Below, piece after piece: positions 44,334 through 58,919 of a stretch of 64,000 nt of DNA (the stretch's first letter is position 1; the number at the start of each line of letters is the position of its first letter). The stretch is taken from contig JAACSU010000007.1 in NCBI GenBank assembly GCA_010119145.1, forward strand, positions 143,869-207,868, in the 5' to 3' direction. The notes beneath the pieces were generated by a model, which was not told where the DNA came from, made no database searches, and saw only the letters and a program-made list of their open reading frames with translations. The DNA is from Candidatus Gracilibacteria bacterium. GTDB lineage: Bacteria; Patescibacteriota; Gracilibacteria; BD1-5; UBA6164. The position numbers and the translations under genes were made by a program.

Positions 44334-45596
<1,263 letters not shown>

Positions 45597-45611: not shown

Positions 45612-45646
45612 AAAAAGCATACACTATTATAGTGTGTGCTTTTTTA
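45612..45646 (+). terminator. terminator after gdhA
   Basis: A stem of about 15 bp (AAAAAGCATACACTA with TAGTGTGTGCTTTTT, one G-U pair) and a 3-base loop, followed by T residues. Confidence 0.85.
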
Positions 45647-45671
45647 TTGGTTAACTTTATTATTTCTCTTT

Positions 45672-45700
45672 GACAAATCAATTTTTTAGTTTAATATCTT
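45672..45700 (+). promoter_or_regulatory. AT-rich promoter just before the GC-rich insert
   Basis: TTGACA at about 45672-45677 followed after 16-17 bases by TAATAT/AATATC. It lies on the AT-rich side of the left junction, so it could belong to either genome and could drive the inserted gene. Confidence 0.45.
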
Positions 45701-45702
45701 TT

Positions 45703-45742
45703 TGACCAACAAGGTCAAAACCAAAAACCCCATATAGGGGAG
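45703..45742 (+). promoter_or_regulatory. two inverted repeats and ribosome-binding site of the foreign gene
   Basis: TTGACCAACAAGGTCAA is an inverted repeat with a 5-base centre, and CCCCATATAGGGG follows. GGGGAG about 12 bases before the ATG is a strong Shine-Dalgarno sequence, unlike the resident genes. Confidence 0.5.
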
Positions 45743-45753
45743 AAAGAGTAACC

Positions 45754-46311
45754 ATGCGTAATACTGTTGGATTTGCAGTCTTGGCTGCCGCTCTTGCTTT
45801 CGCCGCACCTGTTGGTGCAGCGACAGTGACCACACTCCAAAACGGAGGTTCGTATACTCCGGGTGATGGGGATCAGTTCAATATCTCCTACATTTCGGCT
45901 GGTGGAGCAGGTAACTTCAGTGCCGACTTCACACCGAATCCTGCGTCCGATGCTATCGGGGTCATCGGGATCAACAGAATCGATCTCGGGAACTTCTTCT
46001 CCGTCGTTGTCGGATGGAAAGACGCGATCGGCGACATCATTTCGTCCCAATCGGTGAACTCTACCTTCACATTGGCGCAGACTGCGTTCAATGCTGGCGA
46101 GAAGCAGACCTTTTTCTTCAACTTTCTGGATTCCAAACCAGGTGGCAAGATCGACGCGAACGTGATGTTTGAATCTGCGCCGGCAACTGTCTCGCCTGTG
46201 CCGATTCCCGCAGCTGGCCTGCTTTTGCTTGCCGCACTCGGGAGCGTCGCAGCGTTCGGCCGCAAGAAAGCGAAAGTCCCAGTCGGGAACGCCAACTTCG
46301 CGATGGCCTAA
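45754..46311 (+). CDS. secreted VPxPA-CTERM-type protein of proteobacterial character
   Basis: A 185-residue exported protein. Residues 1-22 are an Ala-rich Sec signal peptide ending VGAATV. The middle is a beta-rich domain (GGSYTPGDGDQFNIS, FTPNPASDAIG) that I cannot assign. The C-terminus PVPIPAAGLLLLAALGSVAAF followed by GRKKAK is the layout of VPxPA/PEP-CTERM sorting signals, handled by exosortase/rhombosortase-type systems in Proteobacteria such as Rhodobacteraceae. No sorting enzyme is in the window and none is expected in this phylum. The gene contains no UGA, so it would be read the same under either code. Confidence 0.85.
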   Translation: MRNTVGFAVLAAALAFAAPVGAATVTTLQNGGSYTPGDGDQFNISYISAGGAGNFSADFTPNPASDAIGVIGINRIDLGNFFSVVVGWKDAIGDIISSQSVNSTFTLAQTAFNAGEKQTFFFNFLDSKPGGKIDANVMFESAPATVSPVPIPAAGLLLLAALGSVAAFGRKKAKVPVGNANFAMA

Positions 46312-46323
46312 ACATTGCTCACA

Positions 46324-46347
46324 GGGGCCGGCTTCATCTCCGGCCCC
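46324..46347 (+). terminator. GC-rich terminator of the foreign gene
   Basis: A perfect 8-bp stem (GGGGCCGG with CCGGCCCC) around CTTCATCT. It is the only GC-rich terminator in the window. Confidence 0.85.
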
Positions 46348-46365
46348 TCGCACAAAAACTAAAAC

Positions 46366-46556
46366 TCAATAATCCAGACTAAGAATACTTTTCAATTATG
46401 ATGAAGTATAGACTGATGAAAAAAATCTGCTCTCCAATATGGAGGCTTTTTTTTGTAAATGTATCTCAAATAAATAATTAGTATTGTATTCATTGAATTT
46501 TCATACACTCTTTAGGTAATATAAAGGAAGATGTAGAAATAATATTAAAAAAATGC
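46366..46556 (+). other. AT-rich gap between the foreign segment and msrB
   Basis: Returns to native composition. It holds a hairpin with a T-run at 46428-46456 (CTCTCC/GGAGG type, then eight T), a terminator for nothing obvious, which may have been cut off from its gene by the insertion. No gene is seen. Confidence 0.5.
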
Positions 46557-47114
46557 ATGAAAACCTACTTGAGTATACTCGTTCCTACATTTTTTATATT
46601 TATAGCTGGTATATTTCTCGGTAACGCTTCTTTGTTACATACTACTCTAGCTTCTAAAAAAACACCTATGAAAGATGAAACAATATACAGTGAATCAGTT
46701 CTTAGAGAAAAACTCACTCCGATTCAATACAAAGTAACCCAAGAAAACGGAACAGAACGAGCCTTTCAAAATGAATATCATGATAATGAAGAGGACTGAA
46801 TTTATGTAGATGTTATTGATGGTACTCCACTCTTTAGCTCGCAGGATAAATTTGATTCTGGAACTGGTTGGCCAAGTTTTACGAAACCAATTTCAGATGA
46901 AAATATAGCAGAATATGAAGATAACTGACTCTTTTCAAGAAGAACTGAAGTGAGAAGTGAATCTAGCGACTCACATCTGGGGCACGTCTTCCCAGATGGA
47001 CCAAGAGACAAAGGAGGACTCAGATACTGTATGAACTCTGCAGCTCTCAGATTCGTTCCAGCTTCAGAACTCAAAGAAGAATGATATCCAGAACTCGAAA
47101 AAAACTTTAAATAA
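46557..47114 (+). CDS. msrB: peptide-methionine (R)-S-oxide reductase MsrB, exported
   Basis: Repairs R-methionine sulfoxide in proteins. The 185 residues begin with a hydrophobic export helix (about 5-25) and a linker, so the enzyme works outside the cytoplasmic membrane. The catalytic domain has [13 protein letters not shown] near residue 101, [11 protein letters not shown] near 140, and the active-site Cys in [11 protein letters not shown] near 158. The zinc CxxC pairs found in many MsrB proteins are absent. Its surface position fits protection of pili and adhesins from host oxidants. Confidence 0.92.
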
Positions 47115-52887: not shown

Positions 52888-54606
52888 ATGAAAACTATAG
52901 AATTTTTTGCTGAGGCTAGAAGGTTTGAATGAATTATAAAGAATCATAAATTTTCTATTCCTGATTACCAAAGAGATTATTCTTGGCAAAAAAAACATGT
53001 TGAATCATTAATTACTGATTTAGAGTCTTCAAGAAAAAATAATATGAGTCATTTTATTTGATCTATTGTATTAGCAGGATGAAAAGATGATAAGGAAATT
53101 TTTGTCATTGATGGTCAACAAAGACTTATAACAATATCGTTATTAGTTGCATCATTTTATAAAATATGTAACGAACTGCCATTAAAGAATCCTGATTTAG
53201 AAGAAAGAAAAAATGAATTAAGGTCCTCATTTCATTATTATTTAACTAGTGAAGAAAAAGCAAAAAAGATAAATATTATTAACATTAGCAGAAATTCAAA
53301 TGAGCTTTATTCAAAATTAATAAATGGAGTCAAATATTCTAATGATAATTTAAGAGAAGAAGAAAAACTCTTTATTAAAAATTTTAAAATTATTTATGAT
53401 TCATTTAAAAAGAATCTTGATAAATATAAAGATGAAGAGTTAAAATTAGATTTTATTGCTGAGATGCTAGAAGTTATTGAAAATATTTCTATTATTCCGA
53501 TATATGTAAATAATGAGTATGACGCATACACAATATTTGAAGTTTTAAATGATAGAGGTCTAGATTTAAATATTTGAGATTTACTAAAAAATTTATTATT
53601 TAAAAAAACTTCTAGTGAAAATAAAGAGAAAATCAAAAAGCTATGGGATGAAATGATTATTGTATTAGAAGAGTGAAAAATTACGATTACTCAGTTTATA
53701 CGTCACTACTGGATTTCAAAAGTAAAGTTTGTTCGTGAGAAAGAATTATATGATGAACTTAAAGATAAAATTAAAAATTTAAGTGATAAAGATATATTGG
53801 ATTTTGTTACTGAATTAGTTAATTCTGCAAAAAATTATAAAAAGATATATGTTCCTCAATTAGATAATTTTTCTTGAATCTATAAAGGAAAGAATATTTT
53901 TACAGTATTGGAATATATTGATAAATTTAAAGTTAAACAATGTTACCCAATTATTTTAGTTTTATATAACAAATTTTTATCTTGAGATATTTCAGCAGAT
54001 AATTTTGAGAGATATTTATTTGAAATTGAGAAATTTAGTTTCATATATATAAAAACTGATCTTTCCCCATCAAAAATTGAATGATATTACTCAGAATATG
54101 CAATCAAAATTTCAAATGCAAATAAATGAGAAATTGATGAAATTTTTACTAACTTAATTCAAGAATTAAGTTCAGAATTAATATCTATTGATATAAGAAA
54201 ACTATTTGATTCATTAATATATGTAAAAGATGGAAATAATAAGTTATTAAACTACGTACTACAAAGATTAGAATTATGAAAAAATAAAGAGTTTAGTGTA
54301 AATGGAAATACAATTGAACATATATTTCCAAAATCTGATATAGAAAATTTTGAAAAACTTTTTTGAACAGATTTTGAAACAAGTCACTTTTTACTTAATT
54401 CAATGTGAAATCTAACTTTATTAACTTCAGATGATAATGAAAGCTTATGAAGTGAAAAAGATTTTATTAAGAAAAAAGAAATATATAAAGAGTCAAGAAT
54501 TCAATTAACTAGTTGATTGAATGAATTAAATTTCTTTTGATTAAAAGAATTAAAAGAAAGACATTTAAAATTATTTAATAGTTTTGAAAAAATATGGAAG
54601 ATTTAA
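52888..54606 (+). CDS. DUF262/DUF1524 protein (GmrSD-like, type IV restriction)
   Basis: A 572-residue fused protein. The N-terminal DUF262 (GmrS-like) domain has FSIPDYQRDYSW at residues 22-33 and VIDGQQRLITI at 73-83, the two diagnostic motifs of an NTP-driven ParB-like fold. The C-terminal DUF1524 (GmrD-like) domain has the His-Me/HNH nuclease motif NTIEHIFPKS near 474 and NLTLLTSDDN near 508. In GmrSD these domains target modified (e.g. glucosylated) phage DNA. Here it sits directly between a methylase and other nucleases. Glycines include many TGA. Confidence 0.9.
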
Positions 54607-54689
54607 ATCTTATTACTTTTTAATCCCTCACATCTTCTTTCACCCCAACAATCTCTATTTTCATTTTATAAAGATTAGCTAAAAATCTT

Positions 54690-55535
54690 ATGGATAAAAC
54701 ACTACAAATCACATTTTATAAAAGTGAAACGAACTGAATTAAAATTCTGGAATTTTCTAGATGAGAAATTATTGGTTTTTTTATTCCTAAACTTCTATTT
54801 AGTAATGAACTTTTGAAAAGCAATTATTTTGAAAATATTATTACAAATTCATGAGTTTATTTCTTATTGTGAGAAGAAATATATATAGGCCAAGCTTTGA
54901 ATATTTTTGAACGATTGAAAGGTCATATTAGAGAATGAAAAAAAGAATTTAAAGATATAATTTGTTTTACAACTAGTAATAATTCTTTTGATGAATGAGA
55001 CATAAATTATTTAGAAAAATCTATAATTTCGCAAGCAAAACAAAATAGTGATATGAGTTTGATGAATCTTAATATATGAAATAATACTAATATTAGAAAT
55101 TTCAGAAAGTCCGATTTAGACCAATATACAGATGAAATTAAATTCATACTTAATATACTTGGATCTAACTTCCTCGAAAAAACTAGAGAAAAGAAAATTT
55201 CTAATGATGATTTTTTTTATATTGATTCAAAAGAAACAAAATGAAAATTAATTCTTGATGAAAAATGATATATTGTTGTATCTGGTAGTTTTTGAAAAGA
55301 TAATCAAAAACCTTCAATGACTAAGAGTTATATAACACTTAAAAACGAATTAATAGAAAAGGGGATAATTCAAAAATTTGATTGAAAACTTATGTTTACA
55401 AAAGATTATATATTTACATCTGCATCTGCACCTGCTCAAATTTTGTTATGATACTCTGTTAGTGGTCCACAAAAATGGAAGTCAAAGGATTGAGTTACAC
55501 TATGAGATTATGAAAGAAGTAAATTTATTGATTAA
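54690..55535 (+). CDS. GIY-YIG nuclease with C-terminal DUF4357
   Basis: A 281-residue protein. A GIY-YIG fold lies near residues 53-150: GVY at 55-57, YIG at 65-67, then the arginine in NIFERLKGH near 75 and Glu in NYLEKSI near 111. From about 225 to 275 comes a DUF4357-type domain (SASAPAQILLGYSVSGPQKWK). That combination occurs in nuclease genes linked to restriction loci, often with unknown partners. It lies 83 bases after the GmrSD-like gene and 9 bases before the endonuclease gene, so it belongs to the island transcript. Confidence 0.85.
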
Positions 55536-55544
55536 AAAACAATT

Positions 55545-56168
55545 ATGCCAAATCAACTTTTTCTGTTAAAAAATAAGGATTTTATTCGTTGGTGTTATGA
55601 AGCAGCTACTGAAAAAAGTCTTATAAATGCTTCTAGCTGAAAAGTCCTAAAAGAGTTTGCAGATATAGAAAAATGACTGTGAAATATTTGGATATGAGCA
55701 GAGTGAGAACATAAACAATGGACAACTCGCTTATGTCAGGAGGCAGTCAGAGAAGTCTTGATCTCTTTATGATATAAGAATGTTAAAAATTCTCGAAAAC
55801 TTAAATCAACTGTTCGAAATAAATGATATGATCCAGATTTAGAAAGTGATGAAGCTGTTTGGGAAGTAAAAGGAAGATGATGGACTACTCCATGAACAGC
55901 TTGAGAAAAAATCTTAGGTACACCTATGAAATATTCTGAACTTCCTGAATTATATTGAAAACCTTTAAAAATTGTTTTAGTTTGATACCAAGAATATGAA
56001 GCAAAACATCATTTTGCTTGTTGAGATTTAGTTGATGAATTAGGTGGTAGAACGAGACAACTTTGAGAGATAATAGATTTTTATAAAAACAAAGGAATAG
56101 AGTATGTTGCTTTCACAGATCTATTAACAAGAGCATGATATCCATATGGTTGTTGGGAAAATAATTAA
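55545..56168 (+). CDS. PD-(D/E)XK restriction endonuclease, type II-like
   Basis: A 207-residue nuclease. The catalytic core reads YDPDLESDEAVWEVKGR, with Asp98 and then Glu107-Val-Lys109 forming the PD...ExK signature. GTAGEKILGTP follows near 117-127, which I know as a run in restriction enzymes of this size, and YQEYEAKHHF near 148. It belongs to a type II-like restriction-modification system, with the methylase at 56439 or 51914 as partner. The cleavage site cannot be read from sequence. Many glycines are TGA, so it cannot be made whole by standard-code bacteria. Confidence 0.85.
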
Positions 56169-57803: not shown

Positions 57804-58919
57804 TTATTCAGCAGGCATAAGTACAGTGTCTATTACAAATGTTACTCCGTTAGAAGACATAACATCTTTTGTTTCAACCATAGCTTCACCGTTTACAGTG
57901 ATCATTCCGTTAGCATCAACGTTAAACATAAGTTTTTCACCATTTACTGTAGTGAGCTCAAGCCCATCAGTGATATCAGCAGAAGTATAAGAACCAGCAA
58001 CTACGTGATATGTAAGAATATCAGCAAGTTGAGCTTTATTTTCAGCCATAAGAAGTGTAGTAACCGTTCCGTCTGGAAGTTTTTCAAATGCAGCGTTTGT
58101 TGGAGCAAATACTGTAAATGGTCCTTCACCTTCAAGAGTCTCAACGAGTCCAGCAGCTTCAACAGCAGCAACGAGAGTTGTTACGTTGCTTGCATTCATA
58201 GCATTTTGAACTATGTTTTTACTTTCAACCATCATAGCACCACCAACCATTACACCATCTTCGTTATCCATCATTTCATCGTCATCCATCATTTTGTCAT
58301 CATCCATCATTGCTGAAAGATTGAACTCAGTGTATGATCGAGCTGCTGTTTCAAAAATCCATGATCTTTTTGCGTTAGCTCCAAGATCGATTTGAGAATC
58401 TATAAGACCTTCTGATTGAGCTTTAGAGCTATATCCAAGTCTCCAATCAGCGTTAGCGTCTCTTTCAATTCCTTTTACTTGCATGATCATTTTTAATGAT
58501 TCAGCTTCAGTAATGTTATCATCTGGTCTGAACATATCATTGTTTGCGATAAATCCAGCTTTTAAAGCTGCTTCAGCATATTTACATCCAAAGTCAGAAC
58601 TGTCTAAATCTGAGAATTCACCAGTACAAGAATCTGTAACAGTTTGTCCAGAAATATTCATAGCTACTTTAATCATTTCTCTTCGTGTAATTTCAGAACC
58701 TAACTTATACATTTCTGTATTAGAAGATTGATCTACAATTACATTTTGATTCGCGAGAAAATTAGCACTTACTACAGCTGCACTAGATGCAGATACGTTA
58801 GTAGTAGCAGATACATTAATAACACTGTCATTCAAAATTTCTTCTGCAGCATACGTAGATGCCATTGTTCCTGCAAATGGTACAAGTGCCATGAGAGCAA
58901 CTGCTTTTTTATAATTCAT
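57804..58919 (-). CDS. secreted SLH/fasciclin-domain surface protein, UGA-free
   Basis: A 371-residue exported protein. Residues 1-24 are a signal peptide (ends TYAAEE). An SLH-like region runs about 70-200 (LGSEITRREMIKVAM, then MFRPDDNITEAESLKMIM), the type that binds cell-wall polymer. An acidic Met/Asp linker follows (MMDDDKMMDDDEMMDN, about 206-222), then a fasciclin (FAS1) domain from about 240 to the end (GPFTVFAPTNAAFEKLP and the final FVIDTVLMPA). All 23 glycines are GGN and none UGA, in contrast to neighbours. It is probably an abundant cell-surface or adhesion protein. Confidence 0.9.
   Translation of the reverse strand: MNYKKAVALMALVPFAGTMASTYAAEEILNDSVINVSATTNVSASSAAVVSANFLANQNVIVDQSSNTEMYKLGSEITRREMIKVAMNISGQTVTDSCTGEFSDLDSSDFGCKYAEAALKAGFIANNDMFRPDDNITEAESLKMIMQVKGIERDANADWRLGYSSKAQSEGLIDSQIDLGANAKRSWIFETAARSYTEFNLSAMMDDDKMMDDDEMMDNEDGVMVGGAMMVESKNIVQNAMNASNVTTLVAAVEAAGLVETLEGEGPFTVFAPTNAAFEKLPDGTVTTLLMAENKAQLADILTYHVVAGSYTSADITDGLELTTVNGEKLMFNVDANGMITVNGEAMVETKDVMSSNGVTFVIDTVLMPAE

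Follow-up and report, generated by a model that had tools for sequence, protein, structure and literature searches.

A GC-rich gene of foreign composition in the dsbD slot of a Gracilibacterium genome that reads UGA as glycine

How a gene with the composition of another bacterium came to stand in an AT-rich genome that reads UGA as glycine, by uptake of DNA or by an error of assembly, is the question raised by the window analysed here, a 64-kb stretch (C7:143869-207868) from the bin of a Gracilibacterium-type bacterium (G000; 1.28 Mb in 37 contigs). In the large contigs sampled, open-reading frame (ORF) cover was 86-97% with UGA as a sense codon vs 7-29% with the standard code, no match to RF2 over its cut-off was found in the bin, and UGA stood at 49% of the glycine positions of native ORFs (share 0.486, 624-kb sample). 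The baseline for composition was 624 kb (565 ORFs) of the same 740-kb scaffold, which outside the gene in question has a mean GC of 31.5% and a third-position GC (GC3) of 22% (0.219 ± 0.052). The gene itself, at 45754-46311 on the plus strand, is 558 bp long, contains no UGA, ends in TAA, and encodes a putatively secreted, 185-residue protein of the VPxPA-CTERM type. Its GC is 0.548, with 0.55, 0.49, and 0.60 at the three codon positions, and its GC3 is the highest of the 565 ORFs and the only one above 0.5 in the 624 kb. In three relatives, sampled over about 768 kb, no ORF exceeded 0.50, and two ORFs of the sister genome G004 reached that value. The richest 500 bp lie at this gene, 6.4 SD above the 624-kb mean with the runner-up at 3.5 SD, and the best-scoring GC-rich segment spans 45728-46353 (log-likelihood ratio 103). 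An earlier note on this DNA had described a GC-rich gene in an AT-rich recoded genome, and the values of 55% GC and 60% GC3 bear this out. The codon composition of the gene matches that of a genome near 55% GC, and composition together with distribution supports a foreign origin of the ORF.

The glycine codons also switch to the standard set, as had been claimed, since all 21 glycines are encoded by GGN (probability of no UGA 9e-7 at the native UGA share). The absence of UGA alone is not diagnostic of foreign origin because, among the 565 ORFs of the 624 kb, five others with 12 or more glycines are likewise free of UGA. The two that were checked are SLH-type surface proteins with SLH (and fasciclin) domains, encoded on the minus strand at 57804-58919 and at L080:10542-11594, with 23 and 61 glycines, all GGN, and native GC3. 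Such UGA-avoiding native genes lend some plausibility to an old acquisition, or to a native gene whose odd composition is under selection, as in a strongly expressed surface protein whose gene does without UGA. Their GC3 of 0.17-0.20, however, is like that of the genome and far from 0.60, and the gene in question has no relative within the order and carries a VPLPA-CTERM signal in a genome lacking exosortase, so that we consider this explanation very improbable.

By inspection, the encoded protein has a signal peptide at about residues 1-23 (MRNTVGFAVLAAALAFAAPVGAA), a middle region of about 125 residues that is rich in beta structure, and a C-terminus, SPVPIPAAGLLLLAALGSVAAFGRKKAK, followed by an 11-residue tail. 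The C-terminal region shows the tripartite layout of a VPIPA motif, a hydrophobic membrane helix (149-172), and a basic cluster, which in the sequence is combined with the N-terminal signal peptide. A low-confidence single-sequence structure model (pLDDT 47.6, too poor for a fold search) placed helices at residues 5-17 and 153-172. The layout of the C-terminal sorting signal proposed in the earlier note therefore stands, while its assignment to VPLPA-CTERM is borderline, as TIGR03370 scored on either side of its cut-off of 25.35 bits (22.5 by hmmscan on the protein and 26.2 in the genome scan). The PEP-CTERM family NF038129 matched the protein weakly (E 0.002), and no Pfam family matched it, middle region included. 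With the VPLPA-CTERM/PEP-CTERM proteins (TIGR03370), which are exosortase substrates, it shares the signal peptide, the VPxPA motif, the membrane helix, the basic cluster, and the beta-rich middle. It differs from them in that its tail runs 11 residues beyond the basic cluster, its middle region is only weakly NF038129-like, and its genome lacks exosortase: PF09721 gave no match in the bin at E ≤ 10, which is expected if the gene is foreign. A phage origin of the gene was rejected, with no match in PHROGs.

The gene lies between two native genes on the same strand, gdhA (glutamate dehydrogenase, 44334-45596, PF00208/PF02812, with UGA as glycine) to its left and msrB (methionine sulfoxide reductase B, 46557-47114, PF01641) to its right. 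The signals described here are likewise on the plus strand. The native, AT-rich gdhA terminator (45612-45644) ends in a T-rich tail after a 15-pair stem. Beyond it lie a sigma-70-like promoter, TTGACA-16-TAATAT (45670-45697; only four matches of this kind on the strand across the 624 kb), and, at the expected transcription start, a perfect palindrome, TTTTGACC-N5-GGTCAAAA (45700-45720), which is operator-like or, from its fold, a leader hairpin. The palindrome core, TTGACC-N5-GGTCAA, occurs only once in the 624 kb, and membership in a native regulon was rejected on this ground. Composition switches to GC-rich at 45728, where a CCCC-N5-GGGG mini-hairpin (45728-45743) overlaps a GGGGAGA Shine-Dalgarno sequence, and on the right it switches back at about 46353, just after a GC-rich terminator-like hairpin, AGGGGCCGG-N8-CCGGCCCCU (46323-46348, -20.6 kcal/mol, z -4.7), that has no real T-run. 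The strong Shine-Dalgarno noted earlier, and a hairpin answering to the GC-rich terminator, are found at the ends of the insert. The AT-rich stretch upstream of the GC block (45646-45727) may belong to either side, and the promoter and palindrome may be donor DNA as well. In Methylophaga, genes for VPLPA-CTERM and PEP-CTERM proteins have c-di-GMP riboswitches upstream (PMC12530212); a riboswitch was therefore considered for the 5′ leader here and rejected, as Rfam shows none. Further along the window, an AT-rich island at 52888-56168 (core 21-25% GC) encodes a GmrSD-like nuclease (HEC-06/Orf5 of PADLOC), a PDC-S14 protein with DUF4357, and a type II restriction-enzyme-like protein, and is a probable defence island.

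Comparison with relatives, in a collection of one genome per species, pointed to what the insert had displaced. Around the insert, gene order in the window is the same as in G004, the closest genome compared (gdhA DNA identity of 78%), where gdhA and msrB enclose a dsbD/ccdA-TlpA fusion gene of 429 codons. G004 also carries a partial second copy of msrB (L031:8950-9097) downstream of the intact one. Each of the other seven genomes of the genus has a dsbD-type gene, which in four of them (G002, G003, G005, and G007) shares a contig with gdhA at a distance of about 3 to 8 kb. A search of the G000 genome did not find it, and the flanks of the insert hold no convincing trace of a remnant. With dsbD absent from G000 and the foreign gene lying between gdhA and msrB, the foreign gene sits where a native gene has been lost, and this replacement, recognised from the gene order of the sister genome, is new here. 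The lack of a convincing dsbD trace in the flanks would also suit two separate events, a loss of dsbD and a later entry of the foreign gene into the intergenic gap left behind. A native-style terminator upstream of msrB with no gene of its own (TCTCCAATATGGAGG and a T-run, 46431-46453, plus strand) would then be a leftover; it is possibly the remnant of a lost transcription unit, and short stretches resembling it occur elsewhere in the genome. Two events are nevertheless less simple than a single replacement and no intermediate is known, and we regard them as the least probable course of all.

The same arrangement could have arisen in the assembly, if scaffolding or gap-filling had set a short contig of some co-occurring proteobacterium between the gdhA and msrB contigs and the bin had lost the real dsbD segment. 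The bin was scaffolded and contains N gaps, and this scaffold has a 47-N gap at C7:81822-81868 (L057:1822-1868), within a tandem repeat of CAAGGCAGCGAATACGACATCGACTACGATAAATTT units. Nine small contigs of 3-10 kb (C1-C6 and C11-C13; L061-L066 and L070-L072) are AT-rich and use the standard code, and are likely contamination, probably from other organisms, since their ORF cover is nearly equal with and without UGA as a stop. A chimera would further agree with an insert that is unique, unameliorated, and close in length to a short-read contig, and with the loss of a gene universal in the genus. It requires, however, two N-free false joins, each intergenic on both sides, with a complete gene, its Shine-Dalgarno, and its terminator between them; the contaminant contigs observed are AT-rich, not GC-rich, and the two flanks have no word longer than 8 bases in common. 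We consider a chimera less probable than a real transfer, though by no means improbable.

Unameliorated composition fits a recent transfer and a chimera equally, and it is the nature of the site, a gene replacement with dsbD lost, that tilts the balance toward a real event. In favour of transfer are also the intergenic position of both breakpoints, which enclose a whole transcription unit, the zero N in the 64-kb window, and the presence of ComEC in the genome. Against it stand the scaffolded bin with its contaminants, the absence of a donor relative and of a second genome with the insertion, and the absence of a mobile element: the insert has no inverted-repeat ends and no transposase inside. 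The flanking target-site duplication that the earlier note had asked after was not seen, as the only repeat at both junctions, the 7-bp CAAAAAC, is no longer than repeats in shuffled sequence. We assign a probability of roughly 0.6 to a recent replacement of the single gene dsbD by proteobacterial DNA; by judgement, not computation, transfer is about twice as likely as a chimera.

Among the 77 genomes of the order, only G000 gave a VPLPA-CTERM match over the cut-off, and no other carried the insertion, so that the independent occurrence sought to dispel a chimera did not emerge. Nor was a near-identical protein or any relative found in GTDB genome contigs (84,980 species, in a search that detects close relatives only) or in plasmids, phages, and viral contigs. 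A pattern of the C-terminal motif gave no match in the GTDB contigs either, though at 16 residues it was too long and a shorter one might match. Of the uptake proposed earlier, from a host or prey bacterium and with Rhodobacteraceae among the groups in which to look for relatives, foreign origin is upheld by composition and distribution, whereas the direction and the source found no relative to support them. For most Rhodobacterales, 60% would be a low GC3. As a donor, Rhodobacterales are a reasonable guess, based on a tidal-sediment chemostat in which a BD1-5 bacterium was enriched alongside populations of Maritimibacter and Roseobacter (PMC4032931); the gammaproteobacterium Methylophaga nitratireducenticrescens, too, has VPLPA-CTERM annotations (PMC12530212). 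The acquisition resembles that of the ATP-citrate lyase subunits, reported as horizontally acquired in a Gracilibacterium (PMC6851277), in that an outside gene stands in a recoded, AT-rich genome. It differs in that the insert here keeps its donor composition and its site has lost a native gene.

If the transfer is real, the Gracilibacterium would have acquired a small fragment of proteobacterial DNA (genome GC about 55%), probably by natural transformation, comprising one gene with its own ribosome-binding site and terminator. Illegitimate, double-breakpoint recombination would have placed it between gdhA and msrB, with loss of the dsbD/ccdA-TlpA gene. In a cell that reads UGA as glycine, translation of a donor gene that ends in UGA would run past its stop. 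This gene, without UGA and with a UAA stop, is code-neutral and expressible at once in such a cell, in agreement with the earlier claim that it reads the same under both codes, in a genome with no recognisable RF2. The UGA-glycine ribosome would then make the intended protein and the signal peptide would export it. With no exosortase in G000, the C-terminal sorting signal would not be processed, and the C-terminal helix would presumably hold the protein in place. Whether an epibiotic or predatory Gracilibacterium in this way displays a surface protein captured from its host or prey, traded for a disposable redox gene in a cross-code transfer caught before amelioration, is a speculative and rather unlikely extension of this reading.

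Should the locus prove to be a chimera, it would caution against calling such islands in binned genomes transfers. If true, the replacement would represent recent gene flow between different genetic codes into an organism that reads UGA as glycine, the foreign genes able to pass would be UGA-free ones that end in UAA or UAG, and the donor, once identified, would be a candidate partner bacterium of this uncultured lineage.
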